From a virus, in the IMG/VR virus record IMGVR_UViG_3300047319_000144, positions 1 through 28,188 of that record: a DNA stretch of 28,188 bases; one strand, given 5' to 3'. The translations under genes were made by a program, and so were the position numbers. The notes under the pieces were generated by a model that had not been told where the DNA came from, did no database searches, and worked only from the letters and a program-made list of their open reading frames with translations. Shown here piece after piece: positions 1 through 14,648 of the stretch. Each line of letters starts with the position of its first letter. Position 1 is the first letter of the stretch.

Positions 1-205
1 GGACGGCCTTGGTCTTGCCGTCCATGTAGGCGTAGACGCGGTCGATGGTGGTTATTCTCGGGATCTTGCCCTCCTCTACACGGGAAATGAAATGGCCGTC
101 GCCCGCGGCCTTGACGCCGAAGGCGGTACGATCGATGCCGACCCGCGCGCGATACGCCTCGATGTCAGCGAGCAACTTCGTTGCAATGGGATGTAATTTT
201 GCCAT
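1..205 (-). CDS. Repressor-like helix-turn-helix protein (3' end outside window)
   Basis: The first 68 residues of a small DNA-binding protein are visible; the rest lies beyond the window edge. A conserved-looking core (AFGVKAAGD, then FISRVEEGKIPR and TTIDRVYAYM) reads like the recognition part of a Cro/C1-type helix-turn-helix, a pattern I recognise from small alphaproteobacterial phage regulators. The ATG at 205-203 has no Shine-Dalgarno sequence. It lies seven bases after a good -10 box, which suggests a leaderless message as in phage repressor genes. The gene diverges from the small genes starting at 310, so it probably controls that promoter and its own. The family is inferred from the motif; the biological role as repressor is inferred from position. 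Confidence 0.8.
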   Translation of the reverse strand, partial: MAKLHPIATKLLADIEAYRARVGIDRTAFGVKAAGDGHFISRVEEGKIPRITTIDRVYAYMDGKTKAV

Positions 206-212
206 CCGGCGG

Positions 213-241
213 GGTATAATGGGTTTTGCTCAATAAGTCAA
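213..241 (-). promoter_or_regulatory. Promoter of the repressor-like gene, probably leaderless
   Basis: Read on the minus strand, TTGACT (241-236) and TATACC (218-213) are separated by exactly 17 bases, a good sigma-70-type match. Seven bases later comes the A of the ATG at 205, where transcription would be expected to start. No ribosome binding site could fit. Confidence 0.65.
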
Positions 242-260
242 TGTGAAAATAGCAATTGAC
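237..260. promoter_or_regulatory. Inverted repeat joining two -35 boxes, candidate operator
   Basis: GTCAAT (237-242) and ATTGAC (255-260) form a perfect 6-bp inverted repeat with 12 bases between. Each arm overlaps the -35 box of one of the divergent promoters, so a dimer bound here could block both. Part of the symmetry follows automatically from two opposed TTGAC boxes. A second short inverted repeat, TGATG (271-275) with CATCA (290-294), brackets the rightward -10 region. Confidence 0.35.
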
Positions 261-284
261 AAAGACCCATTGATGTGCTAGGTC
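256..284 (+). promoter_or_regulatory. Rightward promoter of the small-gene cassette
   Basis: A perfect TTGACA (256-261) is followed after 17 bases by TAGGTC (279-284), preceded by a TG one base upstream as in extended -10 promoters. The -10 match is weak (2 of 6). The position fits the downstream genes, whose first start codon is at 310. Confidence 0.45.
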
Positions 285-309
285 ATGTTCATCACAACAG
301 GAGTACCCG

Positions 310-486
310 ATGAGCATTATCCACTTCCCCGACAGCGGCGACACGGTCCAGATGGACCGCACCGCGGCGGGCGTCTATGTCGCGCGTCTCATTCTTGAGG
401 ACGGCGAGACCTCGCCGGAGTATGGAACCGGCGACACCGAGATGTCGGCGATCGCCGACCTCGTCGAAGCACTGGCAGGAGAGTAA
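310..486 (+). CDS. Small hypothetical protein, 58 aa
   Basis: I do not recognise a family. The 58-residue product is acidic and soluble, starting MSIIHFPDSGDTVQM and ending in a short helix-like tail (LVEALAGE). The ATG is preceded by CAGGAG eight bases upstream, a good ribosome binding site. It is the first gene after the divergent promoter region, and its end carries the Shine-Dalgarno sequence of the next gene. Position next to the repressor suggests an early phage gene. Confidence 0.7.
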   Translation: MSIIHFPDSGDTVQMDRTAAGVYVARLILEDGETSPEYGTGDTEMSAIADLVEALAGE

Positions 487-488
487 CT

Positions 489-806
489 GTGCAAATCCCC
501 ACCACCTATTTTTCGCTGCACGACGTCACCGCGCTCAAGGCCGCGGCGCTGACTACGCTCGACACGCCGCTTGTCCTGAGCATCGAGACGCCGCACGGCG
601 GCATGCAGATCAGCCTCTACATGAACGATGTCGAAGCCAGCAGGATCGAGCGCATCGCGGCCGCCATCAACGCGATCCTGAAGGAACCGGAGGCGCCGAA
701 GATCCCATGCCCGGTCGAGACCGCCGCCTATGCCTCCGCCGACGAGTATTGGGCTTCTCTGAAGCGCGACCTCGACGCGCGTCCGATCGGGAAGGCCGCC
801 GAATGA
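489..806 (+). CDS. Hypothetical early protein, 105 aa, GTG start
   Basis: The product is 105 residues with no recognised family. The N-terminal half looks like a beta-rich segment (LVLSIETPHGGMQISLYM), followed by a helix (EASRIERIAAAINAILK) and a charged C-terminal tail. The start is GTG at 489. It is chosen because AGGAGAG lies just upstream, overlapping the previous stop codon, and because the gap is only two bases, so the two genes are probably translationally coupled. It overlaps the next gene by four bases (ATGA). Confidence 0.75.
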   Translation: MQIPTTYFSLHDVTALKAAALTTLDTPLVLSIETPHGGMQISLYMNDVEASRIERIAAAINAILKEPEAPKIPCPVETAAYASADEYWASLKRDLDARPIGKAAE

Positions 807-901
807 ACTACGATCTCACCTACATCGTCGCCGTCACGCTGACGGTGGCCTGCCTGATCGCGATCTGGGCCTGCGTCGTCGCTGAATTGAGGGCGCCATG
901 A
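803..901 (+). CDS. Tiny single-span membrane protein, 32 aa
   Basis: A 32-residue peptide begins at an ATG that overlaps the previous stop (ATGA) and ends in another ATGA overlap with the next gene. Residues 7-27 are an uninterrupted hydrophobic stretch (YIVAVTLTVACLIAIWACVV), enough for one membrane helix, with a short polar tail ELRAP. Overlaps on both sides with otherwise well-behaved genes make chance unlikely. The function is unknown; small membrane peptides in early regions of temperate phages sometimes modify host functions, but nothing here shows that. Confidence 0.6.
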   Translation: MNYDLTYIVAVTLTVACLIAIWACVVAELRAP

Positions 902-1161
902 GAACCCGGATGCTGGAGGACATCGGCAACCACTTCTCCGATCGCGTCGTCGACCTGATCGTCGACACGCTCGACACCTGCCGCCTCATGGACGTGCCCT
1001 ACAAGGATGCCAAGTCGATGGTCGCCGCCGTCGTGGCGGCGCATCTCGCGGAAACCTGTCTGGTGTTCCGGATGTCACAGGAAGATTTCCTGAAGCTGGC
1101 CGCAATGGCCTACCAGCGCCACGCAGGCGCGCGGCGCAAGGCGCCACGTCGCACCAAATAG
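898..1161 (+). CDS. Hypothetical protein, 87 aa
   Basis: This 87-residue, mostly helical product has no recognised family. It contains an acidic N-terminal half (FSDRVVDLIVDTLDTCRLMD), an Ala-rich helix and a strongly basic tail (ARRKAPRRTK) that could touch nucleic acid. The ATG overlaps the preceding stop by four bases. The gene is the last of the rightward cassette and ends three bases before a strong hairpin, so transcription of the cassette probably stops there. Confidence 0.7.
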   Translation: MRTRMLEDIGNHFSDRVVDLIVDTLDTCRLMDVPYKDAKSMVAAVVAAHLAETCLVFRMSQEDFLKLAAMAYQRHAGARRKAPRRTK

Positions 1162-1163
1162 AA

Positions 1164-1205
1164 AAGCGCCCGGCGGGGGCAGGGGGTGCTGGTCGCCGGG
1201 CGCTT
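1164..1205 (+). terminator. Hairpin terminator after the small-gene cassette
   Basis: AAGCGCCCGGCG (1164-1175) pairs perfectly with CGCCGGGCGCTT (1194-1205): 12 base pairs around an 18-base G-rich loop. It starts three bases after the stop codon of the 87-aa gene. The trailing T run is short (GGGTTTG), so termination may be incomplete. The hairpin separates the early cassette from the secreted-protein unit. Confidence 0.7.
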
Positions 1206-1268
1206 GGGTTTGCTCGTCCATCACAACAAGCGGGAGCACTGTACCCCAAATCTATCGGATGGACTAGG

Positions 1269-1294
1269 GGAACCCGGAGGCGTAGGCTGGCGTC
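1269..1294 (+). promoter_or_regulatory. Possible EcfG-type (general stress sigma) promoter
   Basis: GGAAC (1269-1273) is followed after 17 bases by CGTC (1291-1294). The alphaproteobacterial general-stress sigma factor EcfG is known to use GGAAC, 16-17 bases, then CGTT, so this is one mismatch from consensus. The expected start near 1300 lies about 25 bases before the ATG at 1327. No good sigma-70 boxes were seen in the same interval. A near-palindrome, GTACCCC (1241-1247) with GGGGAAC (1267-1273), overlaps the -35 element. Confidence 0.35.
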
Positions 1295-1326
1295 ATTGGT
1301 TCATCACAATTGCCCCGGAGCCTCCC

Positions 1327-2127
1327 ATGAAAAAACTGCTGATTGCCGCCGCGGCGCTGGCACTTATGGCTGGCGTGGCGCGCGCCGACACCTTCGTCAC
1401 CCTCGGCGGCGTCGACTGGAACACCACCAATTCCGGCAACGCCACGCTGGCCGCCACGGTGCCGGGCGGCAATCAGCCGCAGAACGCGCCGTGTCTGGTC
1501 TGCGGCGCGACCCAGCCGCAGCAGCCTGCGGGCTTCGGCTACAACGACTACTCCAACGGTGGCAACACCAGCGCGATCACAGCATTCTCCGATCAGGGCA
1601 ATGGTGGCCGGAATACGTTGCTCGACAACACGATCAGCGTGACAAATCCCGGCTACAACATCGGCGACGGCTCGCTGTTCAAGGCGTTCCTGCTGGCGAA
1701 CGGCGACACCGCTGGCAATCTCGGCTTCTCGATTGGCGTCGACATCAACTCCACAAACCAAGCGCAGACGCTGAACTCATTTTACTTCCTCGACCTGACC
1801 ACGCACACGGTGATCGCGTCGTACACGGGCGGCACGGCTGGCAACGTGCCGGACATCAACAACGGCACCGGGTTTCCCGACTACACGCTGTCGGGCTTCA
1901 CGCTCAACGGTGTCAACCCCGGCGATCAGGTCATGTTCGTCGCGCGGATGTCCGGCTTGAATGATGGCCCCGACAGCTTCTTCCTTGAACCGGGTCCGGC
2001 GGCTGTTCCCGGTCCGATCGTGGGCGCGGGCCTGCCGGGCCTGCTCGTCGCCGCCTTTGGCCTGTTCATGCTGAACCGCTACCGCCGCAACAAGCGCGAC
2101 GGCGGCTTCCATGCTGCGATGGCTTAA
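1327..2127 (+). CDS. Secreted protein with PEP-CTERM-like C-terminal sorting tail
   Basis: The 266-residue product starts with a clear signal peptide (MKKLLIAAAALALMAGVARA, cleavage expected before DT). It ends with a tripartite anchor: a VPGPIVGAGLPG motif near residue 227, a hydrophobic helix and an RYRRNKR cluster. This is the architecture of PEP-CTERM/exosortase substrates, and the VPGPI-GAGLPG variant is one I associate with Bradyrhizobium. The middle is Gly/Asn/Thr-rich and probably beta-rich, with one CxxC pair (CLVC). The start at 1327 is chosen because the signal peptide begins there and GGAG precedes it; an upstream in-frame extension would run back into the terminator. Unusually, nine residues follow the basic cluster. 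The gene is not a virion gene by appearance and looks like cargo. Confidence 0.85.
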   Translation: MKKLLIAAAALALMAGVARADTFVTLGGVDWNTTNSGNATLAATVPGGNQPQNAPCLVCGATQPQQPAGFGYNDYSNGGNTSAITAFSDQGNGGRNTLLDNTISVTNPGYNIGDGSLFKAFLLANGDTAGNLGFSIGVDINSTNQAQTLNSFYFLDLTTHTVIASYTGGTAGNVPDINNGTGFPDYTLSGFTLNGVNPGDQVMFVARMSGLNDGPDSFFLEPGPAAVPGPIVGAGLPGLLVAAFGLFMLNRYRRNKRDGGFHAAMA

Positions 2128-2353
2128 GCGAAAACTTCGCCCGCCTCTCCCGGCGGGCGAACCCTATCTGAGCGACCCGACACCGGAAAACCTCTACGCT
2201 TTGCTCAAGAGGCGCTGCCCGGTATGCGGACTTGCGCCGCCGGAGTGGCTGGAGGGGCTGGCGGCGCGAGATGCGGTATGCGCCCGCTGTACCGCGCATT
2301 ATCACGCCGACGAGAAGGACAGGACCGCCTTCCGGGTCAATCGGATGCGCTAG
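2111..2353 (+). CDS. Small four-cysteine (zinc-ribbon-like) protein, 80 aa
   Basis: The 80-residue product has two CxxC pairs, CPVCG at 36-40 and CARC at 57-60, with His63 and His65 close by, a spacing that could bind zinc. The N-terminus is basic (MLRWLKRKLRPPLP). The ATG overlaps the end of the secreted-protein gene by 17 bases, so both are probably translated from one message. Its 3' end overlaps the end of the oppositely oriented amidase gene by 17 bases. No ribosome binding site is obvious. Family and role are unknown; an alternative is a structural protein with disulfides, though the reducing cytoplasm favours metal binding. Confidence 0.7.
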   Translation: MLRWLKRKLRPPLPAGEPYLSDPTPENLYALLKRRCPVCGLAPPEWLEGLAARDAVCARCTAHYHADEKDRTAFRVNRMR

Positions 2354-3302
2354 GGTGCGGGAAGATCACTTCAACTTCATCATCGGTCTCCAGCCCGAGA
2401 TCGGCCAGCAGGCCGGGTGACAGGTCAGCGATCCGGCCTGTATCCTCATGCGGCCCCCAGTCCGCCGGGAAGGCTGCCAGCTCCTGCCCGGTCGAGGGCA
2501 CCCGCACCAGTGCGACGCCGTCCGCCAGCATCTCCTTGGACGTGACGTCGTAGTTCCACCTGCAGGCGATGTAGTGGACATAAGGATTGAGGCGCCGCGC
2601 CAGACCTGAGCTGCCGGACGGCTGGTAGGGCAGGAACAGATGCTGGTTGTCGGCGGTGACGTCGAAGTGCAGCGCCAGTCCCTCGTCGGAACTGACGCCG
2701 ATGTCCTCCGGCCCACCGAACTCCGAGCAGGCGCCGATCGCGCGGAACAGCGCCTCGCCGCCCGGCGGCGCGAAGATGTCCTCGTCCTCGTCGTCGCCGC
2801 CTGCCACGTCGGCGAGGCTGTCACAGATGTCCTCGAAATTTTCGCGGTAGATCCCGGCGTCAGCTTCACTGTCAACGAAGCATATCTCCAGCAATGCTGC
2901 TGGCATTGCCGTGCTGTTCAGGAAAAACAGATCCTTGCGCTTCTTTGCGCCGCGGTCGACGAAGCCACAAACAGCGATCGCCGCGGACAATTTGGCCGCC
3001 AAGGCCTGCTGGCTGTAGTAGAGCACCTCACAGCCAACCGGTTCAGAAGTTTCAACATGGGCGTTGAAGTGGATGCTAAGGTCCAGATCCCGCGTCTGAC
3101 TGTTGTGCCAGTCGACGATACGGTTGAGGTTCTCGTTCTGGCTGGTGCTCACCGTGTCGTGGTAGGTCATCACCTCATGGCCACGATCGCGCAGGTCAAT
3201 CGCGAGCTGGTTGGTGACGCGGGTGGCCTCGGTGACTTCGTTGAGGATGCCGGAGGCGCCTTGGCACTCGGTGGAGTGGCCCGACGAGATACAGATGCGC
3301 AT
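2337..3302 (-). CDS. Endolysin: N-acetylmuramoyl-L-alanine amidase with C-terminal double-psi beta-barrel-like domain
   Basis: The 321-residue enzyme should cleave the amide bond between N-acetylmuramic acid and L-alanine at lysis. Residues 1-165 fit the Amidase_3 family: zinc ligands His9 (SSGHS), a glutamate near residue 22-25 and His78 (SIHFNAH), with catalytic Glu139 (LLEICFVDSEAD). An acidic linker (GDDEDED) leads to a second domain, residues about 185-315. There, PADWGP, TGRIADLS and LGL..DDEVEV resemble the GP..GRIIDLS pattern of RlpA-type double-psi beta-barrels. There is no signal peptide, so release would need a holin. The ATG follows GGGGGTAA, which overlaps the stop of the tiny gene ahead. 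It is the last gene of the late operon. Confidence 0.85.
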   Translation of the reverse strand: MRICISSGHSTECQGASGILNEVTEATRVTNQLAIDLRDRGHEVMTYHDTVSTSQNENLNRIVDWHNSQTRDLDLSIHFNAHVETSEPVGCEVLYYSQQALAAKLSAAIAVCGFVDRGAKKRKDLFFLNSTAMPAALLEICFVDSEADAGIYRENFEDICDSLADVAGGDDEDEDIFAPPGGEALFRAIGACSEFGGPEDIGVSSDEGLALHFDVTADNQHLFLPYQPSGSSGLARRLNPYVHYIACRWNYDVTSKEMLADGVALVRVPSTGQELAAFPADWGPHEDTGRIADLSPGLLADLGLETDDEVEVIFPHPSASD

Positions 3303-3306
3303 GGCG

Positions 3307-3417
3307 TTACCCCCGTATAAGCATGAAGATTACGCCCATCGTTCCAATTCCAGCCGAGAACCCGGCCATGAAGATCATGGCCCTTTCCCATGTTTTGGTC
3401 TCAGTGATGTCAATCAT
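3307..3417 (-). CDS. Tiny membrane protein in lysis cluster, 36 aa
   Basis: A 36-residue peptide starts at the ATG at 3417-3415 and stops four bases before the amidase start. After a polar N-terminus (MIDITETKTWER) come about 20 residues suitable for one membrane helix (MIFMAGFSAGIGTMGVIF), then LIRG. It is one base downstream of the stop of the preceding tiny gene, and its own end supplies the amidase ribosome binding site. Tight packing just ahead of the endolysin makes a lysis role, such as a small holin or holin modulator, plausible, but no family is recognised. Confidence 0.6.
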   Translation of the reverse strand: MIDITETKTWERAMIFMAGFSAGIGTMGVIFMLIRG

Positions 3418-3418
3418 G

Positions 3419-3508
3419 TCAACCCCACAATATCTGCACCAGCAGCGCCAGCAGGGCGATGGTTGTAACAGCCATCAGCACCAGCCACCAGTCGCTGCGG
3501 TGTATCAC
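3419..3508 (-). CDS. Tiny membrane protein, 29 aa (GTG start), possibly the 3' half of a split gene
   Basis: The frame runs from a GTG at 3508 to a TGA one base ahead of the next ATG. Residues 7-28 are strongly hydrophobic (WWLVLMAVTTIALLALLVQI), a good membrane helix. The frame stays open upstream of the GTG but offers no better start codon, and no ribosome binding site is convincing. The ORF just upstream (3510-3557) would join it to give one 44-residue protein if a single T were skipped at TGC-TGA-C. It may therefore be an independent peptide, a recoded gene, or a decayed one. Confidence 0.45.
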   Translation of the reverse strand: MIHRSDWWLVLMAVTTIALLALLVQILWG

Positions 3509-3509
3509 G

Positions 3510-3557
3510 TCAGCAGCCGCGACATATCTTGGGCTGGCCGGTGTCCAGCGGAGGCAT
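3510..3557 (-). other. 15-codon ORF, possible 5' half of the split membrane-protein gene
   Basis: An ATG 13 bases after the stop of the two-helix membrane protein opens a short frame encoding MPPLDTGQPKICRGC, then TGA. The CRGC ending is followed, one base out of frame, by DVIHRSDWW and the membrane helix of the 3419-3508 ORF. The position fits a real gene start; the length alone does not. Confidence 0.3.
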
Positions 3558-3570
3558 CGGGTCTATCTGC

Positions 3571-3783
3571 TCAGCGAAAGGGGTGCGGCACGCCGCCCGT
3601 GGTGAAGGCGGTGATGGCGTAGATGATGATCAGCAGCAGGAAAATGAACCATATCCCCTGCTCCAGCTTTGGCGGGATCGGTGTGACGAAGTTGTTTATG
3701 CCGTACAGCACCAGATAGATCACGCCCGCAAGAATGATCGCTCCGATCAACAGCCATAGCAGTGAAATCGCAATGCCAGCCAT
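3571..3783 (-). CDS. Two-helix membrane protein, holin candidate, 70 aa
   Basis: The 70-residue product has two long hydrophobic segments, about residues 2-27 (ISLLWLLIGAIILAGVIYLV) and 44-62 (GIWFIFLLLIIIYAITAF), joined by a short polar loop (NNFVTPIPPKLEQ). It ends in a small polar tail with one Arg. Two membrane helices, small size and location upstream of the endolysin fit a class II holin. A GTG one codon earlier is also in frame, but a perfect AGGAGG sits five bases from the ATG at 3783 and only two from the GTG, so the ATG is preferred. No sequence family is recognised. Confidence 0.65.
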   Translation of the reverse strand: MAGIAISLLWLLIGAIILAGVIYLVLYGINNFVTPIPPKLEQGIWFIFLLLIIIYAITAFTTGGVPHPFR

Positions 3784-3792
3784 CACAGCCTC

Positions 3793-3915
3793 CTATCGGT
3801 CGTAAGACCTTTCGATCGCGCGCAATATCGCATGCCGCATTCGGCGGTGGCAGTGGTCCTCGCGCATCACCTCGACCAGCATCCGCAACAGCGCCCTGAC
3901 TTCGTGTCTGCTCAT
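3793..3915 (-). CDS. Small basic protein, 40 aa
   Basis: The 40-residue product (MSRHEVRALLRMLVEVMRED, then HCHRRMRHAILRAIERSYDR) is rich in Arg and His and looks like one amphipathic helical hairpin. The ATG overlaps the preceding stop by four bases (ATGA) and has GGAGGTGG upstream. The stop lies close to the AGGAGG of the next gene. It has no recognised family. The frame is open further upstream, but that part is antiparallel noise over a real gene in another frame. Confidence 0.6.
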   Translation of the reverse strand: MSRHEVRALLRMLVEVMREDHCHRRMRHAILRAIERSYDR

Positions 3916-4133
3916 TGGCCACCTCCATGTTGTTTCATCTTGTTCCGCACCTCGTTGCACGTCTCGGTGACGGTGACGAACTTGCCGTCGACCATGTTGA
4001 CCTGACAGCGCACGTTCGGCGTGAAGGCCGGATTGCTTGGCTCCGGGTTGCGCAAATTGGTGATGGTCGCCGTGTTCAGGTCGATGGCGGTGCCTGAGCC
4101 TGAGTGCAGGATGATCATCACAAGCCAGATCAC
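3912..4133 (-). CDS. Small exported or membrane-anchored protein with two cysteines, 73 aa
   Basis: The 73-residue product begins with a short hydrophobic run (IWLVMIILHSG) and continues with a polar domain containing Cys43 (NVRCQVNMVDGKF) and Cys59 (VTVTETCNEVRNKM), suitably placed for a disulfide outside the cytoplasm. The GTG start at 4133 overlaps the stop of the tail-fibre gene (GTGA), which supports coupling; an ATG five codons later is the alternative. It lies between tail fibre and holin candidate. A spanin-like role is conceivable but there is no lipobox. Confidence 0.6.
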   Translation of the reverse strand: MIWLVMIILHSGSGTAIDLNTATITNLRNPEPSNPAFTPNVRCQVNMVDGKFVTVTETCNEVRNKMKQHGGGQ

Positions 4134-5863
4134 GCTGGCTTGGCGTCAAGCCGCCCCTCAAGCTGCGCCACCCGCGTCCGCAGCGCCTTCAATTCCTGCA
4201 ACAGCACCGGGACGTACTTGGAATAGTCCACGCCCCAGAAATCATCCTCCTGCCCGTCCTGCTGGCTGTGCGTCACCGCCATCGGGTAGACCTCGACCGC
4301 CTGCTGCGCGATCACGCCGTAGGAACGCTCGCCGGTTTTCTTCCACGCGAAGTCATAGACGTTGGTCTGGTCGATGATGTTGCCCGCATCGAAGGACTTG
4401 AGGTCTTCCTTCAGTTCACCGCTGGATGAGGTATTGAAGGTGACGGCTCCAGAAGTTTCGCCAATGCTTCCTACCGTAGTACCAACTGAATTGTTAAACA
4501 CCATCATGTTTGTGCCGTCAGTAATGGCCTGCAAACCAATGCCATACTGCGTACCGCCGCCTGCGCAGGTAAGTTTCAGGGCACAGGCGTTGGCAGCCAG
4601 ATTTCCTCCGAATGGATTGATAACGACCCATCCCGAAGCATCCAGTTCCAGCACCGCCTTGTTAGCTGCAACGCTTGTCCAGATCAGATTGTCCGACGTG
4701 CTGCCGCCGCCGAGAACGGCGGATCGGTGCCCCTCGAACCATTTGGTGACCGAGTTCTTCTGCCAAGAAATGAATGCACCGCCATTGGTCGCGCCACCGC
4801 CGTTCATGACCAGATTGGAGCCTGCCGCCGTTGCCCCTCCCGGCCCGCAGACGATGTTTCCGGGCGCGACAAGTGAGCCACCCAACAGATTGAAATTGGT
4901 GCCGTCGTAACTCAGCGACTTGGTGCCGCTGTTGCCGAAGTAGTAGCCGCCGGTGGTCGCTGTTTTTGCGGCGTAGAAATCGGCCCCGTTGACGAACAGA
5001 TTGCCGCCATTGAAGTTGAAGTTGGCGCTGTCGAAGGTCAGCGACTTGGTGCCGCTGTTGCCGAAGTAGTAGGTGCCGGTGGTACCCGCGTTGCCTGCTG
5101 TGATGCCCTGTGCAAACGACGCCAGCCCGCTCGAACGACTGATACTAAGCGGCGCATCAATCTGAGTTCCGGCATCGGCATATCGAATGAGCGCAAAATC
5201 GGAGCCTGCGTTGCTGCCGCTCTCCGCAGCCGCGTTACCAAACCTCATCTGCCAGCGAGATAGCCCGGCTGTTGCCCCCGTGATGATGTTGTTTTGTCCC
5301 GCAGCGGTCTTGTTGAGCGTGAATGACGGAAGGGCGTCGGCGATTGTCAAATCTCCCGTCATGGTGTCGCCGGTCACGTTGACGTAGGCGGCGTCGAGGT
5401 CGGTGGAAGCTCCTGCCTGCTGCTTCCACGCAGCCCACACGCCAGCCGTCTTTTGCCGCAGATACTTCAAGCCCGTCGTGACGTCGCGCGCCTCGATGAA
5501 CATGTTCTGCCCGGCAGGCACCGCAGGCGGCACCACCGCAGGGTCGGAGGTGTAGCACTGCCCGATGAAGGCATTGGCTGTCGGTGCGGACGTGGCACCG
5601 GCTGCGGAATAGAACGACCCAGACACGAACGGATAGCTGTCGTAGTTGGTGACCACCTGATAGGCGACATCGCCCTGCAACGACGTCATCGCATCGCGCG
5701 CGTTGTTCGCGCCGGTGCCACCGGCCACGATGGGTCGGGGCAAGTTCAGGTCTTGCGTCACGTCGGCGACGAAGCCGTTATACTTCGTGCTTTCGACCGT
5801 GTAGTTGGTGATACCGTTGGTGCCCGGCGGCGGGGCGTATTGGGACAGACCATCTCTCGGCAT
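4130..5863 (-). CDS. Tail fibre/spike with C-terminal S74 intramolecular chaperone
   Basis: The 577-residue protein has a short N-terminal virion-attachment-like segment with LPRPIVAGGTGANNA, a motif common in phage tail fibres. A Gly/Asn/Thr-rich repetitive shaft follows, and the last 95 or so residues form a Peptidase_S74 chaperone domain (ELKEDLK, then YGVIAQQAVEVYP and DYSKYVPVLLQELK). In this family the chaperone trimerises the fibre and cuts itself off with a Ser/Lys pair five residues apart; Ser480 and Lys485 fit, although the usual Asp after the Ser is Ser here. A final coiled coil (LLQELKALRTRVAQLEGRL) closes the protein. Two 42-residue shaft units are near-identical. It likely binds the host surface. 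A CAGGAG precedes the ATG. Confidence 0.9.
   Translation of the reverse strand: MPRDGLSQYAPPPGTNGITNYTVESTKYNGFVADVTQDLNLPRPIVAGGTGANNARDAMTSLQGDVAYQVVTNYDSYPFVSGSFYSAAGATSAPTANAFIGQCYTSDPAVVPPAVPAGQNMFIEARDVTTGLKYLRQKTAGVWAAWKQQAGASTDLDAAYVNVTGDTMTGDLTIADALPSFTLNKTAAGQNNIITGATAGLSRWQMRFGNAAAESGSNAGSDFALIRYADAGTQIDAPLSISRSSGLASFAQGITAGNAGTTGTYYFGNSGTKSLTFDSANFNFNGGNLFVNGADFYAAKTATTGGYYFGNSGTKSLSYDGTNFNLLGGSLVAPGNIVCGPGGATAAGSNLVMNGGGATNGGAFISWQKNSVTKWFEGHRSAVLGGGSTSDNLIWTSVAANKAVLELDASGWVVINPFGGNLAANACALKLTCAGGGTQYGIGLQAITDGTNMMVFNNSVGTTVGSIGETSGAVTFNTSSSGELKEDLKSFDAGNIIDQTNVYDFAWKKTGERSYGVIAQQAVEVYPMAVTHSQQDGQEDDFWGVDYSKYVPVLLQELKALRTRVAQLEGRLDAKPA
4912..5072 (-). repeat. 35-bp direct repeat within the tail-fibre shaft
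   Basis: The 35 bases at 4912-4946 recur identically at 5038-5072, 126 bases (42 codons) apart, and similarity continues for about ten bases beyond. They encode the shaft unit TYYFGNSGTKSL at residues 264-275 and its copy YYFGNSGTKSL at 307-317. The near-absence of silent changes suggests a recent duplication or gene conversion. Confidence 0.85.
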
Positions 5864-7446: not shown

Positions 7447-9237
7447 CTACTGCCCCCCGCTCCGGCGCGCGGCGCGCTTGGCCCGCGCTATCTCCAGATC
7501 GGCCGAGCCGGGGCCGTAGGCTTGGTCGAAATAGATCTTGTGCAACGCCGCCTGCCCCGGATCACCCTTCTGGGTGTCGAGGAACATCTTCAGCTTGTCT
7601 CCCGGTGCAGTCGGCAGCGGATTGGTGGCGTAGTAGGACGCCTGTGGATGCACCCCGTGCGGCGATCCCTCGCCTAAGAAGTTGTGAACCAGATCCTCGT
7701 AGCGGTTTATCCTTGTATTGTTGATCTCGGCGGCGCGATCCATCAGGGTCTTGATGGTTTTCATCTGCAGTTCCGGGTTGGTGCCCTGCAGATCCTGCGA
7801 GATGGCCAGATCTCTGTCAGTCACACGTCCTCCGACGCCGTTGATGGTCTCGATCGCCTGCTTCAAACCCGCCTGCAACGAAGCACGCATGATCTCGGTA
7901 TTGGAGGCATAGTCACCCTGCAGTCCGTTCTTGAGCGCCCAGTCGGCGAATTTAGCGGCCGCCACCTTCATGCTCGAACCGTAGCCGGTAATGACGCCAT
8001 CACGGATTGCCGCGCGCGCCAATTGTTGCGCGTTCTGGCCCTTGACGATCTGATCGACCGCACTCTTTTCCGTATCGAGGTTGCCCCAGAACACGTCCGG
8101 CGTCTTGCCGGTGCGCTTGACTATGTCGGCTCCGGCAGCCGCGACTGCGGCCTTGCTGCCAGCTTCTTCCAACTGTTTCTGCGCCACGCCCTTGCCCTGC
8201 TGGGCGCGCTCCTGCTCCAGTATGCGCTGGGTTTCCTGTTGACGATCGAGCCGGTACTTCTCCTGCAAGTCAGCATTCTCTCTGTCTCGCTGCTCCTTGC
8301 CCAGCTTCTGCAGCAACTGGCCTTGCGCGATCGCGCGCGGATCGCCGCGCTGGTTGCCCCACTGCTCCAGATCGGCGCCCTTCAGCTCCATCTGGTTGTA
8401 GGGCGCGTTTGGCGGCTGTTGCACCGGTCCCGGCTTTGGCGCCGCCACCGGTGGCCACACTTGGTTGATCTCGGGGATGTCAGGCGCGGTGCCCGCGGCT
8501 TGCGCCACCTGAACCGGCTTGATGTCAGTCTCGATCGGGCGGTTCGGCTTAAGTGGGGAACCAAGGAGAGACGGGTCCGGGCTTAAATCCGAGGGGGCGG
8601 AGGCGGGCTGCTGGCCCGCCAGCATAGGGTTTGGTTGCGGCCCTCCCTGCCGCGCCTGCATGAGCTGGGCGATGCTGGCGCGTACCGCGGCGGGATTAGG
8701 CTGGCCGGTGGGCGCGCCCACCGGAGCTGCGTCGCTCATGGTGCCGGTGTCGGCCGAGGCCAGCTGCGGGGCACCGCCTGCATCTGCGACCGGCGGCAGG
8801 GCATCCGCGGGCTGGTAGGCATCGTTGTTGGCGGCGGCCTGCAGCAGCGGCGCGGCCGCGGCGGGAACCGGTGAGGCGTCCGCTACCGCCGGTGCGATCG
8901 GCGGCATCTGCGGCGACGCCTCGGCGCGCGGTCCGGTCGCCGCGGCCGGTGGATTGGTCTGCTGCATCAGCGAGGACGCGGACGGCGGCGGGTGCTCGAT
9001 GTTCCACTTGTCATAGGCCGCCTGCTGCGCGTCCAGCTGCGCCAGCTGCGAACGCTCTCCCAGCGCGTCTCCGATCGCGGTCAATCCCTCGCCGACGTTC
9101 TTGGGATAGCCTTTGCGATCGCGCCCCAACATCGCGATCGCGATCTTGCGGCGGGTCTCCAGCGCCTGCGGGCTGCCGGGATCACCGGCGGGCGCGCTGC
9201 CGCTGAAGGCATAGGTCAGATTGTCAAATAGTCCCAT
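7447..9237 (-). CDS. Probable internal virion/ejection protein, 596 aa
   Basis: The protein has three zones: a conserved-looking N-terminus (FDNLTYAFSGSAPAGDP, then RKIAIAMLGRDRKGYPKN), a disordered Pro/Ala-rich linker at about residues 83-285, and a Gln/Glu/Arg-rich coiled coil at about 303-368. A folded helical C-terminal domain follows, with ETINGVGGRVTDRDLAISQD and an NTRINRYEDL segment, a pattern I recognise from uncharacterised podovirus structural proteins. There is no visible lysozyme or transglycosylase motif. The ATG at 9237 overlaps the preceding stop (TGATG); a GTG one codon earlier is the alternative. A role in DNA ejection is inferred from neighbours. Confidence 0.65.
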   Translation of the reverse strand: MGLFDNLTYAFSGSAPAGDPGSPQALETRRKIAIAMLGRDRKGYPKNVGEGLTAIGDALGERSQLAQLDAQQAAYDKWNIEHPPPSASSLMQQTNPPAAATGPRAEASPQMPPIAPAVADASPVPAAAAPLLQAAANNDAYQPADALPPVADAGGAPQLASADTGTMSDAAPVGAPTGQPNPAAVRASIAQLMQARQGGPQPNPMLAGQQPASAPSDLSPDPSLLGSPLKPNRPIETDIKPVQVAQAAGTAPDIPEINQVWPPVAAPKPGPVQQPPNAPYNQMELKGADLEQWGNQRGDPRAIAQGQLLQKLGKEQRDRENADLQEKYRLDRQQETQRILEQERAQQGKGVAQKQLEEAGSKAAVAAAGADIVKRTGKTPDVFWGNLDTEKSAVDQIVKGQNAQQLARAAIRDGVITGYGSSMKVAAAKFADWALKNGLQGDYASNTEIMRASLQAGLKQAIETINGVGGRVTDRDLAISQDLQGTNPELQMKTIKTLMDRAAEINNTRINRYEDLVHNFLGEGSPHGVHPQASYYATNPLPTAPGDKLKMFLDTQKGDPGQAALHKIYFDQAYGPGSADLEIARAKRAARRSGGQ

Positions 9238-9503
9238 CACCCTGCTCCCAGCTGCTGTTGCAACGCCAACCTGCGCTGCGCTTCTTCTTCCGCGGCCTGC
9301 TGCTGTTGCACGGCCTGTTGCTGCTGCGCCTCCGCCTGCGCCTGTTGCTGCTGCGCCATCGCCATTGGATCGACCGGCGGTGGCACGGCGGGACGCTGCT
9401 TCTGCGCCATCATCCGCTGCGCCATCACCTGCTGGGCAATGCGCTTACGCAGCTCCAGCTGCTGATAACCGAGTGCTGCGACATCTTTCGGCACGTTGAC
9501 CAT
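9237..9503 (-). CDS. Glutamine-rich small protein, 88 aa
   Basis: The product begins with a short charged helix (MVNVPKDVAALGYQQLELRK) and then becomes almost entirely Gln, Ala and Met with runs such as AQQQQAQAEAQQQQAVQQQQ. It is probably one long helix or coiled coil. It starts one base after the stop of the upstream gene and ends in a TGATG overlap with the ejection-protein gene. Together with the Gln-rich stretches of its neighbours it suggests an oligomerising or scaffolding helper, but nothing more can be said. Confidence 0.6.
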   Translation of the reverse strand: MVNVPKDVAALGYQQLELRKRIAQQVMAQRMMAQKQRPAVPPPVDPMAMAQQQQAQAEAQQQQAVQQQQAAEEEAQRRLALQQQLGAG

Positions 9504-9504
9504 C

Positions 9505-10902
9505 CTAAGCTGCCCTGATGATGGATCCCATCACCTCGCGGGGTCTGATGTACTTGACGCCCTCGTGTTCCTCGACCGCGCTTGGCTCGATGCGCTCGAC
9601 ATCCTGCGCCATCGGACCGATGTGACGCGTCGACGAAGGATCGTCCTTGTAGCTGTACTGGTAGATCGGCAGCTTCCTGCGCGCGCCGTCGGTATTGGCG
9701 GCGAACACGGTGCCGATCCTGTCGATGTCGTCCTTCTCGCGGCGGTCCGATTTCAGCGCGCCAGCGCCGAGGCCGAGCACGCCGCCGATCAGCGCGTTGG
9801 ATTGCTGCATCTGGGTATTGTACAGCCCCATCTGGTTCTGGAAGCCCTGCTGGGTGATGCCTGCGATGTCGGTGGTTGGAATTTGAGTTGACGGCGCGTT
9901 GACGAAGTTGGGCGAGGTAACTTGGCTGCCGCTCATCAGCGCGGAGATCTCGTTGATGGGCTGATTTCTATTTGCGTACTGCTCCTGCAGCCACTGGTTT
10001 CTGGCGGCCTCGGCCGCGTTGAAGCCCGACTGCGCCTGACTGGTCTGCTGCGCCAGCCCGGCATTGGCGAACGCCGCCTGCGCCGCGTTCTGCGTGAACA
10101 GCTGGTTCGCCGCCTGATTGTAGAAGGTGCCTTGGCCGAGGTTCTGCTCGTAGCCCTGCTGCTGCGCCGCGTTCTGGAACTGGGCGCGCTGCGCCGCCAT
10201 CGCGTCCATGCGCTGCTGTTCCTGCCCGGCCTGCGAGATCGCGCCAAATCTGGCATCGTTGGCCTGCTGCTGGTAGGTCCGCATCGCGTCGTTGTAGGCT
10301 TGGCTGCCGTAGCGGATGCCTTGGTCCGCCAGCTGCTGCTGGACGCGGCTTTCCTCCTGCTGCAGCGACGGGTTCATCCGCGCCATCAGGCTGTCCTCGA
10401 CGCGCTGGCGATCGGCGGAGTAGTTGTCGGCCGGTCCGTAGTCCTGCGTAATCTGTCCGCCCTGATCGAAGCTGGTCTGCAGCGGGATGCCCGCGTTGAA
10501 ACTGGTCTGCGCCTTCGGCACGTTGCTGATGGTGGAACTATCGCCCGCGGCCGGTCCTCCGCTCGGATTGAACGGGGTGGACAGCACGTTGCCGACGCGG
10601 TTGGTCTGCTGGTTGGCGACGTTGGCGAGCTGCTGCTTGGTGGCGTCCTGCGTGTTCTTCAGCGCAAGACCTGTAGGGGAGAGGCTCTGCGTCGCGGTAA
10701 AGGTCGGGATGTTGTAGGTCTGTCCCGTGCTCGGATCGGTGAAGGCGTAGCTGCCGCTCGGATTGTAGCTCAACGAGCCGTCCGGCGTGTTCTGGTTGAT
10801 GTTGCCCAGATACGCGTTCGCCACTGCCGTCGAAACATTGGTGCCGGTCTGCGCCCGCGCGGTGGCGGCCGGATCTGGAGGGGTAGGTGCGTCAGGCTTC
10901 AT
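9505..10902 (-). CDS. Tail protein with C-terminal S74 chaperone domain, 465 aa
   Basis: The N-terminal part carries a conserved phage pattern (PPDPAATARAQ, ANAYLGNINQNTPDGSLSY) known from many podovirus and siphovirus structural proteins. The middle, about residues 150-320, is a long Gln/Asn/Ala-rich helical stalk with heptad-like spacing. The final 80 residues form an S74 chaperone domain: SDRREKDDI with Ser385 and Lys390 at the five-residue spacing used for self-cleavage, then IGPMAQDVERIEP. It is the second S74 protein of the window, so two separate trimeric appendages or internal components are likely matured the same way. The ATG lies three bases after the preceding stop. Confidence 0.8.
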   Translation of the reverse strand: MKPDAPTPPDPAATARAQTGTNVSTAVANAYLGNINQNTPDGSLSYNPSGSYAFTDPSTGQTYNIPTFTATQSLSPTGLALKNTQDATKQQLANVANQQTNRVGNVLSTPFNPSGGPAAGDSSTISNVPKAQTSFNAGIPLQTSFDQGGQITQDYGPADNYSADRQRVEDSLMARMNPSLQQEESRVQQQLADQGIRYGSQAYNDAMRTYQQQANDARFGAISQAGQEQQRMDAMAAQRAQFQNAAQQQGYEQNLGQGTFYNQAANQLFTQNAAQAAFANAGLAQQTSQAQSGFNAAEAARNQWLQEQYANRNQPINEISALMSGSQVTSPNFVNAPSTQIPTTDIAGITQQGFQNQMGLYNTQMQQSNALIGGVLGLGAGALKSDRREKDDIDRIGTVFAANTDGARRKLPIYQYSYKDDPSSTRHIGPMAQDVERIEPSAVEEHEGVKYIRPREVMGSIIRAA

Positions 10903-10905
10903 GGC

Positions 10906-11250
10906 TCAGTATCCCTGTCCCTGTGGCGGCGGCATTCCACCCGGCTGCGGTGCCGCGCCGGGCATTGGCGCGGCTCCGGGCTGCATCGGCGGCGGCGCGG
11001 CTCCGGGTGCACCGGGCTGCCGTGGAATGATCGGCAAGGACGGCGGCGCCATGCCGGGCAGCGGCGTGCCGCCCTGCGGCATGCCCGGCGGCGAATAGGG
11101 CGGCGGCATCGGCTGGCCCTGCTGCGGGATCGGCGAGGGGCCTTGCGGGAACTGCGGCGCTACACTGGGCGGAGGACTTGCAATGTTCATCAGCGCGCTC
11201 GTGATGCTGTTGCGCTGGTTGTCGACGCCGGGCGGCAGATAGGGAGGCAT
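10906..11250 (-). CDS. Proline-rich low-complexity protein, 114 aa
   Basis: The 114-residue product starts MPPYLPPGVDNQRNSITSAL, the only part with folded character, and continues as Pro/Gly/Ala/Met repeats (GAAPMPGAAPQPGGMPPPQG) with no predicted fold. The start at 11250 is chosen because its ATG overlaps the stop of the acetyltransferase gene (TGATG); the longer reading to 11340 would run through that gene. It belongs to a block of disordered proteins downstream of the tail nozzle gene and is probably a minor virion or assembly protein. Confidence 0.65.
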   Translation of the reverse strand: MPPYLPPGVDNQRNSITSALMNIASPPPSVAPQFPQGPSPIPQQGQPMPPPYSPPGMPQGGTPLPGMAPPSLPIIPRQPGAPGAAPPPMQPGAAPMPGAAPQPGGMPPPQGQGY

Positions 11251-11729
11251 CAGGCGGCCTGTGCTTTCTTCAGCGGGTGGTGCCGCCGATCGCGCTTGTT
11301 GAACTTGTTGTCGACCCAGTCCTCGAACGTCAGCGTACACAATACGCAGTTCCTGTCGTGGCCGAGCAGCCGCGGCACCAAGATGAAGCCGTAGCCGATC
11401 GCGGCCAGCACCCGCAGCAGCGAGGTGTTCTTTTCCTCGACCCGCATCAGCACCATCTGGCAGCCGATTTCGAGGAACGGATAGTCATAGATCCGGCGCA
11501 GCGTCTCGCTCGTCAGCCAATACTTGCCCGGCAGTGCCGCGCCCGACATCTCGATCACGCCCGCGCCGATGTCGAAATTATGGTAGACGAGGCCCGCGAT
11601 CAGCTTGCCGTCGTCGACAATTCCAATCGCCTTCGACGCCTTGGAGAAGCCGCGCTCGCGCACAGCCGGGATCAGCGCCGCCACGAACTCGGCGACGAGT
11701 TGATCGTGTCCGTAGACGTAGTCGAGCAT
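11250..11729 (-). CDS. GNAT-like acetyltransferase encoded in the late operon, 159 aa
   Basis: The 159-residue protein has the size and layout of a GNAT N-acetyltransferase: a beta-rich N-terminal half (AIGIVDDGKLIAGLVYHNF, then GVIEMSGAALPG), an acceptor-side segment (YPFLEIGCQMVLMRV), a helix (NTSLLRVLAAIGYGF) and a closing strand (CVLCTLTFEDW). The pattern resembles a group of phage-borne GNAT proteins I recognise from alphaproteobacterial phages. The classical acetyl-CoA loop is not textbook here (VEEKNTS at its place), so activity is uncertain. It is overlapped on both sides (TGATG). It could modify a virion or host protein; the target is unknown. Confidence 0.75.
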   Translation of the reverse strand: MLDYVYGHDQLVAEFVAALIPAVRERGFSKASKAIGIVDDGKLIAGLVYHNFDIGAGVIEMSGAALPGKYWLTSETLRRIYDYPFLEIGCQMVLMRVEEKNTSLLRVLAAIGYGFILVPRLLGHDRNCVLCTLTFEDWVDNKFNKRDRRHHPLKKAQAA

Positions 11730-12712
11730 CAGATCGGACCTCCGCCATAGCCGCCCCAGCCGAGGGCACTGTCGCCACCGCCAAATGCCGCGCCGTTGGC
11801 GCCGCCCACAGGACCCAGCGCCTCACCAGTTGTGCCGCCCCAGCCCATCGCGGCACCGGCAAGGCCTCCGCTGCTGGCAATGCCGCCGCCGCCCCAACCG
11901 GGGCCAAACCCTACGCTGGAGGGTCCGCTGACGGCGACCCCGTTGACGGCTTGACCATCGAAACCTGTCGCGCCGTAGCCGAAACTGCCGGGACCGTTGA
12001 CGCCTTGGCCGGGCGTTCCGATGCTCATGCCGACCGGGCCGGTGGCGTTGGGAGCATTGGCGGCCTGATTGGCTTCATTAGAACTTATTCCGTTCGGGCC
12101 GACTGCCGTATTGCCCGGACCGAATGGACTGTTGTCGCCGCTGGGCGCGCCGCCGCTGCTCATACCCGCATCGCCACTATTGCCCGGCCCGCCTAGCCGC
12201 TCGTTGACCCATTGTATGGCCGCCTGATCGCCCGCCATCCGCTTAAACGTCTCCCAGTCGCTCTTACCCAACATAGACATTCCGACATCATTCACGGCGC
12301 CGATGCCTTGGCGCGACCAGTAGTCCGGGTTGGCGCGGGCCATCGAGCCGCCGCCGATCCACGGTGAGCCGCCGGGGGGCGGCGTTCCGGGCTGGCCGCC
12401 CTCGGTGACACCGCCCTGCCACGGCATCAGGGCGTTCATCCAGCCAACATCGGTAGGGCTGCCGCTGGGCGCGCTCTGCGGCTGGAAATACTGCGCATAG
12501 TCACCGTAGGGACTGGCCTGCGACTGCTGCGCCTGCTGCGCCATGACCGCCTGCGCGATCGCGTTGCGCGTCGCGTCCTGTTGCTGTTGCAGGGCTGCGT
12601 AATAACCGGACATATCCGGCGCCGCGCCTCCACCGCCGCCGCCACCAGACTGCGGATCAGGAACTTCGATGCCGCCGCCGCCCTCGTCGCCTGACGATGC
12701 GTAGATCTTCAT
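11729..12712 (-). CDS. Glycine-rich low-complexity protein, 327 aa
   Basis: The product begins MKIYASSGDEGGGG, has a short Gln-rich helix (YYAALQQQQDATRNAIAQAV) and a small charged helical part (KSDWETFKRMAGDQAAIQWV). Otherwise it is a Gly/Pro/Asn/Ala sequence with tandem near-repeats built on GNGP- or GFG-like units. The ATG at 12712 is chosen because it overlaps the preceding stop (ATGA); an upstream in-frame ATG at 12742 lies inside that gene. Its stop overlaps the acetyltransferase start (TGATG). It has no known family and is a probable minor virion component. Confidence 0.7.
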   Translation of the reverse strand: MKIYASSGDEGGGGIEVPDPQSGGGGGGGAAPDMSGYYAALQQQQDATRNAIAQAVMAQQAQQSQASPYGDYAQYFQPQSAPSGSPTDVGWMNALMPWQGGVTEGGQPGTPPPGGSPWIGGGSMARANPDYWSRQGIGAVNDVGMSMLGKSDWETFKRMAGDQAAIQWVNERLGGPGNSGDAGMSSGGAPSGDNSPFGPGNTAVGPNGISSNEANQAANAPNATGPVGMSIGTPGQGVNGPGSFGYGATGFDGQAVNGVAVSGPSSVGFGPGWGGGGIASSGGLAGAAMGWGGTTGEALGPVGGANGAAFGGGDSALGWGGYGGGPI

Positions 12713-13317
12713 GAGCTGGCTCCCGGAACTTGAGGCACCCACTGCTGCGGACCCTGCGGCACCACGTTGGAGCCGCCGCCGCCCGGGAAGCGGGTGTCGA
12801 AGTTTTCAGACGGCCCGGTCAGGCTGGGATCTGGAGCGCCTTGGAACCGCTGCTGGAACGGCGTCTGCTGTGGTTGCTGTGGCGTGCCACCGCCGAAGAA
12901 ATCGCTACCGCCGTAGCCACCACTGGCCAAGCCGCCACCGCCGATATTGGTCGGCGGCAGTCCGGCGCCGCTGAAGGCGTTGTAGCCGCTCGGGATCTGC
13001 GGCTGGCTCATCGCGCCGCCGCCGTAAGGCCCGGCAACGCCGGTCGGGATCTGCTGTCCCGCCATCACCCGTTTGTAGAGCATGATGTCGGTCGGCGACA
13101 TGCCCATCTGCATGTACTCGGCATCCGACTTCAGCGGCTGCGACGACGGCGCGCCCGGCGCGCTGTACTGCACGGTGCCGCCGCTCAATGCCTGCTGCGG
13201 CATCATCGCATTGGCGATGTTGTCGCGCTGGTAGTTGGCCTGCAGCTGCGCGGCCTCGGCCGGGTGGAGGCTCGAATAGGTCGGCCACCATCCTTCGCGT
13301 GTCGGATCGCCTGCCAT
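12709..13317 (-). CDS. Gly/Pro/Gln-rich protein with shared short motifs, 202 aa
   Basis: A conserved-looking N-terminus (GDPTREGWWPTYSSLHPAEA, then YMQMGMSPTDIMLYKR) is followed by a disordered Gly/Pro/Gln region. In that region PFQQRF (153-158) and SENFDTRF (170-177) echo PFASRF and PENFEDRW in the product of the gene just upstream. The start overlaps the stop before it (TAATG) and the end overlaps the next start (ATGA). The family is unrecognised; with its neighbours it forms a set of related disordered proteins. Confidence 0.7.
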   Translation of the reverse strand: MAGDPTREGWWPTYSSLHPAEAAQLQANYQRDNIANAMMPQQALSGGTVQYSAPGAPSSQPLKSDAEYMQMGMSPTDIMLYKRVMAGQQIPTGVAGPYGGGAMSQPQIPSGYNAFSGAGLPPTNIGGGGLASGGYGGSDFFGGGTPQQPQQTPFQQRFQGAPDPSLTGPSENFDTRFPGGGGSNVVPQGPQQWVPQVPGASS

Positions 13318-14180
13318 TATGACCTGCCTTCCATGACTTGGGGCCTTAGCTGATTGGGGTTCAGGGCTCCGCCCGGATTGTCGGGTCCGAACTGGCTCTC
13401 GAAGCCCGGCGGCAGGTTCGGCTGGAACGTCTGGCCCTGCACGTTGGTGTAGGGCGAGGCGGTGTACTGAGAAGGCGTACCCTGCTGGAAGCCGGGAAGG
13501 GCGCTGAACCGGCTGGCGAACGGATTGGGGTCGAACTGCTGCGCCGCCGGATTGTAGCCCAATAGCGCCTGCGGGTTCGGGTTTGACGGCGGCGACATTG
13601 CCCCGCCGCGCATCCAGCTATCGTCGTAGCCCGGAGTTTTTGGCGTGAGGCCCTGTTGTTGCTGAGGCGCGGTAAGCTCGGTGAAGTATTTGCCCCAGTC
13701 CTGCGTGACCGGCTGCTGCGGCGGAGGCGGTACGGCCGACGTGGGCGGATACTGGCCGCGCGTGTTGTCCCAGCGGTCCTCAAAATTCTCTGGCTGCTGC
13801 GGCGGCGTGGTTTGCTGTGCCCACGGCTGCGACTGCGCCGCCGATGCGCCGCCATACAGCCAGCTATCGTCGTAGCCTGCGGTCTTGGGGGTATAGCCGC
13901 CCTGCTGCGCCATCGGCGTCGGCGACAACAAACCGCCTCCGCCCTGCCGCGGAACGGGGAGCTGGCCGTAGGCGGACTGGTCAAACACCGACCCCATGCC
14001 ACTCGGCTCACCAACGCCGCGGCCGTAGGCGGCGCCGAGGCCGGAGTAGTAATCGGTCTGCTGGCCGAAATTGCCGAAGATATTGTTGAGCTGCGCCTGT
14101 CCTCCCGCGCCCACGCCGCCGGGGCCGAACCCCATCGAGGCGTTGATCTGGTCGGCGCTCATCCCACCAAAGTCAGCCAT
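13317..14180 (-). CDS. Repetitive Gln/Pro/Gly-rich protein with GYDDSW repeats, 287 aa
   Basis: The N-terminus has some folded character (MADFGGMSADQINASMGFG, then QLNNIFGNFGQQTDYYSGLG). The rest is disordered and Pro/Gln-rich. A 14-residue unit occurs twice: TPKTAGYDDSWLYGGA at 97-112 and TPKTPGYDDSWMRGGA at 179-194, with an identical 18-base core in DNA. GMGSVFDQ (61-68) recurs as SMGSVFNQ in the upstream neighbour, and ENFEDRW and PFASRF recur in the downstream neighbour. Both ends are TAATG overlaps. Its role is unknown; a multivalent docking protein in the virion or assembly is one possibility. Confidence 0.7.
   Translation of the reverse strand: MADFGGMSADQINASMGFGPGGVGAGGQAQLNNIFGNFGQQTDYYSGLGAAYGRGVGEPSGMGSVFDQSAYGQLPVPRQGGGGLLSPTPMAQQGGYTPKTAGYDDSWLYGGASAAQSQPWAQQTTPPQQPENFEDRWDNTRGQYPPTSAVPPPPQQPVTQDWGKYFTELTAPQQQQGLTPKTPGYDDSWMRGGAMSPPSNPNPQALLGYNPAAQQFDPNPFASRFSALPGFQQGTPSQYTASPYTNVQGQTFQPNLPPGFESQFGPDNPGGALNPNQLRPQVMEGRS
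13614..13877 (-). repeat. Two copies of an 18-bp core encoding GYDDSW
   Basis: The 18 bases at 13614-13631 are identical to 13860-13877, 246 bases (82 codons) apart. Surrounding codons are similar at the protein level but diverged in DNA, which points to selection on the motif rather than a very recent copy. Confidence 0.75.
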
Positions 14181-14641: not shown

Positions 14642-14648
14642 CCATGCC

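Follow-up and report, generated by a model that had tools for sequence, protein, structure and literature searches.

Phage morons and lysogenic-conversion genes are extra genes that lie outside the particle structure and occupy variable places. In Gram-negative bacteria, PEP-CTERM tails co-occur with EpsH (Haft et al. 2006, PMC1569441), and in the accessible part of that paper, where the word "phage" occurs 0 times, exosortase substrates combine a signal peptide and diverse ectodomains with a C-terminal motif, a hydrophobic segment, and a basic cluster. MYXO-CTERM is a further tripartite C-terminal sorting tag, with an invariant Cys in its motif, and the intramembrane protease myxosortase described in the accessible text of PMC11980579 sets a precedent for a tail with an enzyme of its own. 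Ltp-type superinfection-exclusion lipoproteins, as the accessible part of PMC3952083 presents them, are phage-encoded and exposed on the host surface. Among the titles listed in the literature searched, whose coverage mostly leaves out subscription journals and preprints, none described phage-encoded PEP-CTERM proteins.

The locus described here lies in what we call the window, the whole stretch of DNA analyzed, which is one entire viral record of 28,188 bases. Its tailed protein has the signal peptide, the motif, hydrophobic segment, and basic cluster, and the diversity of ectodomains seen in PEP-CTERM substrates; the tails of some relatives of its type A ectodomain, and of the alternative type B ectodomain, match PEP-CTERM models, and the remote relatives of type A are PEP-CTERM proteins encoded on chromosomes. 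Unlike those proteins, it is encoded by a phage, and phages exchange both its ectodomain and its tail; moreover, its own tail, of a kind we call VPGP-GAGLPG, fails the PEP-CTERM models, and the bacterial bearers of this tail that were searched lack the EpsH family. The tail shares its tripartite form with MYXO-CTERM but has no Cys. By analogy with Ltp, we propose that the tailed protein could work alike from the host surface, although Ltp has a different anchor and belongs to phages of Gram-positive hosts. As with morons, the gene is extra, variously placed, found beside an integrase in some phages, and, to judge from its signals, not part of the particle, and its homologues are mobile between unrelated phages; unlike morons, it holds a constant slot in the window's lineage, where no recombinase was found, and lies in packaging clusters elsewhere.

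Gene order, protein build, and upstream signals

The window runs from a + strand operon through the tailed gene and a four-Cys gene to a convergent endolysin and structural genes on the opposite strand (Table 1). This order agrees with an earlier note on this DNA, which had placed the unit between early and lysis modules, and both of the genes that the note described there are real: the small four-Cys protein is encoded as proposed, and an open reading frame, signal peptide, C-terminal helix, and basic cluster were all confirmed for the signal-peptide protein. The small operon is retained in three of five close relatives (L076, L077, and L079), while the four-Cys protein was seen only in the window's lineage and in L070 when viral contigs were searched (4 of 16 stretches). 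In relatives, the HTH-like gene at the left end heads a divergent left operon, as seen in L426 and L427; it likewise opens a divergent operon in G203, the other genes of which we take, on an unscanned reading, for replication genes.

Table 1. Features of the window discussed in the text
Feature	Position	Strand	Remarks
HTH-like small protein, N-terminal part	2-205	-	weak HTH_31 and phrog_7669 matches
Small operon	310-1161	+	upstream of the tailed gene and running toward it; 58-, 105-, and 87-aa proteins
Hairpin	1164-1205	+	3' of the operon; inverted repeat and fold
Intergenic region, possible leader	1206-1326	+	between hairpin and tailed gene
Type A tailed protein, predicted to be exported	1327-2127	+	266 aa
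Exchangeable ectodomain segment	1400-1990	+	DNA identity drop against L076 and L158
Coding region of tail signature VPGPIVGAGLPGL	2005-2042	+	exact match to the narrower tail pattern
Four-Cys protein, CPVC...CARC	2111-2353	+	zinc-ribbon-like, 80 aa; overlaps the tailed gene by 17 nt
Endolysin	2337-3302	-	Amidase_3 / phrog_435; convergent with the tailed gene
Tail fibre	4130-5863	-	Peptidase_S74 chaperone domain at the C terminus
Several low-complexity proteins	9237-14668	-	Pro/Gln/Gly-rich; within the structural region

The tailed protein comprises a signal peptide (residues ~1-21), an ectodomain (~22-224), and a tail (227-259) made of VPGPIVGAGLPGL, a hydrophobic helix, and the basic cluster RYRRNKR. 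Hydropathy peaks at residue 4, in the N-terminal signal peptide, and at residue 235, in the C-terminal helix; the structure model places helices at 2-15 and 237-259 around a beta-rich ectodomain. No Pfam, NCBIfam, or PHROG family matched the protein, and no PEP-CTERM model (TIGR02595 / PF07589) matched its tail at E <= 1. Alongside the signal peptide, the tripartite build of Pro-rich motif, membrane helix, and basic cluster is present, so that by sequence the tail is PEP-CTERM-like in build, and we recognize it as a sorting-type tail because the type A ectodomain bears PEP-CTERM or VPLPA-type tails in other phages. The exosortase-type tail of the earlier note is upheld on these two points but not by the PEP-CTERM models themselves.

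The hairpin folds at -35.1 kcal/mol (z = -4.74; 0 of 200 shuffles equally good), with a perfect 12-bp outer stem around an inner GGCAGGGGGT. Matching hairpins lie at about 1895-1935 in L074 and about 4895-4935 in L157, where the stem letters differ yet remain complementary and the inner GGCAGGGGGT is conserved; because the stem changes are compensated in these relatives, we regard the hairpin as a real element, probably a terminator or a processing element. A terminator had been proposed at this place, and the strong hairpin speaks for it, but the T-tract is weak and a terminator scan gave no + strand entry here. The separate promoter proposed with it was not recovered, since a sigma-70 scan of positions 1-4500 returned a sole site at 2417-2446 (1.2 expected) and none in the intergenic region before the tailed gene. 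The 120 bases upstream of that gene are 85-97% identical to L076 and L158, and they hold two of the three window copies of the motif TYCATCACAAY (288, 1217, and 1300; 0.54 expected, with 3 of 100 shuffles reaching the same copy number). The intergenic region with this motif could be a leader or promoter element. TYCATCACAAY was also found before genes in L157, L158, L160, L079, and L074, often immediately ahead of the ribosome-binding site.

Exchange of ectodomains and tails between phages

Relatives were sought in viral contigs with the endolysin (best 80 of 118) and the four-Cys protein, and five with endolysin identities of 79-90% have a readable slot (L074/L080, L076/L078/L160, L077/L158, L081/L157, and L079); a sixth, L109, was left out, its contig ending short of the slot. 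The earlier note had pictured a moron-like segment that relatives might lack. Instead, a protein with signal peptide and tail fills the slot in all five, a departure from the moron pattern which indicates that, in the window's lineage, the slot is constant and its content variable, and which does not support an optional insertion. L074 carries the window's type A ectodomain, and the other four carry the unrelated type B ectodomain, with the signal peptide kept in all four and a window-like tail in three; the fourth, L079, has a canonical PEP-CTERM tail and is missing the four-Cys gene.

DNA identity to L076 and L158 is ~82-100% up to position 1340, 10-60% over ~1400-1990, and 87-97% over 2018-2120, and this drop and return indicates that the exchange occurred within the gene, with signal peptide and tail retained. 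Type A and type B are likewise swapped in a second lineage (L290 and L193, with 71-92% over most flank pieces) and in a third (L182 and either L008 or L006, with 88% in one flank piece for L008 and 84-85% in the signal-peptide region), the flanks, signal-peptide region, and tail being common in both cases and the ectodomain not. The pairs L221/L198, L319/L351, L007/L341, L312/L374, and L002/L175 were rejected as swaps, their matches being tail-only, short, or partial. In L070, a different phage, the tail is near-identical to that of the window (pN/pS 0.09) and the ectodomain far diverged (0.87).

Searching viral contigs with the window protein gave 76 stretches, 75 of which encode a relative; one of these, L076, is the type B protein matched by its tail, which leaves 74 of type A. 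At least 74 viral contigs besides the window, most of them from unrelated phages, encode the type A ectodomain at the sequence level, and a profile of 43 type A proteins reached 210 viral loci, the best 80 of which were retained. Setting L070, L074, and L076 aside, along with isolated weak matches at a few other loci, the window's other genes are almost absent within ~6 kb of the 75 loci. Together with the window, these 76 loci form 12 gene-sharing groups, a grouping that used raw ORFs of at least 90 aa with overlapping false frames included, such that two shared ORFs may be one gene; false frames merge groups and do not split them, and short contigs may fail to join.

The type A ectodomain bears VPGP-GAGLPG, PEP-CTERM-like, or VPLPA-like tails (28 PLP, 16 VPGP, and 10 PEP among 54 distinct proteins), and the kind of tail tracks the group: four groups have VPGP/VPAP, another four PEP, and three PLP, with the tail of the singleton L032 unclassed and a PEP tail in L023 inside the large group. 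The place of the tailed gene also varies, from the gap between TerL and portal (L016) to positions past TerL (L035), past the portal (L017), near the major head gene (L022), or beside an integrase (L006 and L007). The cargo character claimed for the gene in the earlier note is thereby borne out in that the ectodomain has passed between unrelated phages, occurs at varied positions, and is swapped inside the gene, but not in the constant slot of the close relatives. In two PEP-tailed lineages, a second signal-peptide protein is encoded directly 5' of the tailed gene (L011 5186-5935 and L012 3407-4102).

Beyond viral contigs, no relative of the window protein was found among 50,697 isolate phage records, nor among 84,980 genomes searched with this single protein, a route that reaches close relatives only. 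The type A profile had 0 matches in the family of G003 (198 genomes), an empty answer which, without a positive control, alone shows nothing; it matched 4 of 385 genomes of the class, the best two matches spanning about half of the profile, and the distant relatives L436 and L437 are chromosomal PEP-CTERM genes.

Type B was found in 44 of 46 stretches of viral contigs, a count that includes L215, which is the L070 phage and was matched through the tail; the 36 distinct type B proteins carry 27 VPGP, 6 PEP, and 3 PLP tails. A type B profile matched 2 of the 385 class genomes, all seven matches falling within the tail or the stretch just before it. The C terminus of the L212 type B protein, VPGPVAGVPEPATWAMLLIGF, resembles a VPGP tail fused to a PEP-CTERM one. 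When viral contigs were scanned for VPGP-GAGLPG tails with a broader pattern, at least 120 stretches came up; in those 120 loci there are 135 tailed ORFs (122 distinct), and the 119 whose ectodomain has at least 60 aa divide into type A (43), type B (31), four families of 10, 10, 7, and 6, and 12 singletons, some of which may be bacterial sequences that entered the viral collection. Same-strand tandem pairs of different families occur at 12 of the 120 loci, some of them probably one phage sampled twice. Given the A/B swaps and at least four further ectodomain families on this tail, the window protein appears to be one of a set of interchangeable tailed surface proteins of phages.

The type A ectodomain has pN/pS values of 0.26-0.42 in nine of ten comparisons, L070 being the exception, and by this measure it is under purifying selection. 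Its structure model is poor (pLDDT 67.6): the best VIA match has Z 6.1 and rmsd 3.1 over 111 aligned residues, and the matches listed are all weak, unrelated beta folds, with no Foldseek match at E <= 0.001. The type B model (pLDDT 85.7) is CBM29-like (Foldseek E 1.6e-4; VIA 1w8u, Z 8.1, rmsd 3.4, 120 aligned) and also matches a toxin C-terminal domain by VIA (6sms, Z 8.8, rmsd 3.8, 121 aligned); the carbohydrate-binding-like arrangement of this model is a common fold that does not of itself indicate function.

The VPGP-GAGLPG tail and bacterial sorting machinery

For genomes, a narrower tail pattern was used than for viral contigs, in a slightly shorter form for the family of 198 genomes. The narrower pattern occurs at 91 of the 120 viral loci versus 12 stretches in 84,980 bacterial and archaeal genomes, the soil viral contigs being a biased sample. 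Its bacterial bearers, in which the tail terminates secreted-looking proteins, are Bradyrhizobium and alphaproteobacterial soil MAGs and one Acidobacteriaceae MAG; as hosts they are candidates only.

Among ten relatives scanned, the TIGR02595 cut-off of 16 bits was passed by two, L017 (type A, 20.0) and L079 (type B, 18.7), and the PF07589 cut-off of 20.7 bits by L079 (26.2); L009, L015, L058, and L062 gave sub-threshold PEP-CTERM or VPLPA matches, and the four VPGP-tailed relatives of this set gave no PEP-CTERM match. The dependence on host exosortase proposed in the earlier note was not supported in the genomes searched. PF09721, the EpsH family, was found in none of five genomes with the VPGP-GAGLPG tail, and TIGR02602 exceeded its cut-off in none of five such genomes (G001-G004 and G085), with both positive controls passing; the tail-bearing genomes are mostly MAGs of unstated completeness; by comparison, PF09721 is present in three of the four alphaproteobacterial genomes with type A profile matches, where the tails are canonical PEP-CTERM or VPLPA-like. 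In the family of one tail-bearing genome, PF09721 occurs in 3 of 198 genomes and the tail itself in 4 of 198. As EpsH-family models are absent from the searched bearers of the tail and present in most of the genomes with canonical tails, we put aside an exosortase-dependent reading of the window's own tail.

In Bradyrhizobium-like MAGs without the EpsH family, VPGP-GAGLPG tails stand on many unrelated secreted-looking proteins (L161-L172 and L429-L435). These tails possibly represent an undescribed C-terminal sorting system.

Proposed role and alternatives

We favor, with a probability of roughly 0.55, the reading that the tailed gene is phage cargo, an exported ectodomain with a sorting tail that the host sorts to its surface, with phage exclusion or a change of polysaccharide as the likeliest benefit. 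The independent swapping of ectodomain and tail between unrelated phages suggests that phages use the protein-sorting machinery of the host to redecorate the infected cell. The protein would be synthesized in the infected cell, or perhaps in the lysogen in other lineages, and exported by Sec; the tail would hold it in the inner membrane, and C-terminal sorting machinery of the host would process it or route it to the surface. There, the beta-sandwich ectodomain would bind or mask a surface component, most likely a polysaccharide, and competing phages may be kept off (superinfection exclusion) or the polysaccharide coat altered. Exchange of the tail would fit the protein to the sorting system of the host, and exchange of the ectodomain would vary its target. 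Counting against this account are the absence of the EpsH family from the VPGP-tail genomes searched, the poor type A model, how widespread the fold of type B is, the possibly bacterial singletons, and the window's lineage without a recombinase of the two families searched. Exclusion of other phages is our best guess at the benefit, its main rival being a change of aggregation or biofilm in lysogens.

That rival takes the protein for a lysogenic-conversion adhesin that serves to alter aggregation, biofilm, or rhizosphere behavior of lysogens and not to keep phages out, which we consider unlikely. It draws on the tyrosine integrase PF00589, present in 11 of 30 viral records with such genes and less than 0.7 kb away from the tailed gene in L006, L007, and L182 (1.8 to >30 kb in the remaining eight), on the need for host PEP-CTERM proteins in Zoogloea floc formation reported in the accessible part of PMC9012009, and on a weak floc_PepA match of the L079 type B protein (21.4 bits against a cut-off of 80). 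However, the integrase family is absent from 19 of the 30 records, which may be incomplete, and the five records of the window's lineage are all among these 19; the serine recombinase PF00239 was found in 0 of 6 records searched; with no recombinase of these two families there, lysogenic conversion is unproven in that lineage. Nor was any such prophage seen in the family of the tail-bearing genome, where the type A profile came back empty.

A periplasmic, membrane-tethered partner of the endolysin, acting late in infection, is improbable. The tailed gene does adjoin a convergent endolysin in the window, L074, L076, L077, L079, and L081, and a lysozyme-type gene lies nearby in L006, L007, and L070 (PHROG-confirmed in L007 only), but it stands on the strand opposite the lysis operon, is found elsewhere close to head genes or in the gap from terminase to portal, and has, unlike spanins or holins, variable ectodomains and, at some loci, a second tailed gene in tandem. 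Its location within packaging or structural clusters in L016, L017, and L022, together with tail-fibre and tail proteins among the Foldseek viral-model matches for type B, would suit a virion component or a product displayed on particles; yet the position relative to structural genes is not fixed, and a signal peptide and membrane tail would divert the protein from cytoplasmic virion assembly, which makes this a slighter prospect still. Position and signals led us to put both readings aside. Least credible is that ordinary host surface genes sit in misclassified bacterial DNA, as the few bacterial-looking singletons, L401 with its tails on opposite strands, and the chromosomal relatives might suggest, for this is contradicted by the phage contexts of type A (terminase, portal, head, or endolysin genes nearby in L016, L035, L017, L022, L007, and the window), by its lack of relatives in the bacterial and archaeal genomes, where only close ones were reachable, and, for type B, by the window's close relatives.

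More broadly, and at somewhat under even odds, soil phages may share modular, retargetable surface proteins built from at least six ectodomain families and at least three host-matched sorting tails, with VPGP-GAGLPG marking an undescribed, EpsH-free pathway of Bradyrhizobium-like bacteria. If the cargo reading is true, phages place proteins of their own on the cell surface by means of Gram-negative sorting tags, the tag being matched to the host, and the tail on a shared ectodomain could predict the hosts of uncultured soil phages. The VPGP-GAGLPG tail itself would suggest sorting by an enzyme that is not of the EpsH family, and the exchange of ectodomains provides ready natural chimeras for testing the role of each part.
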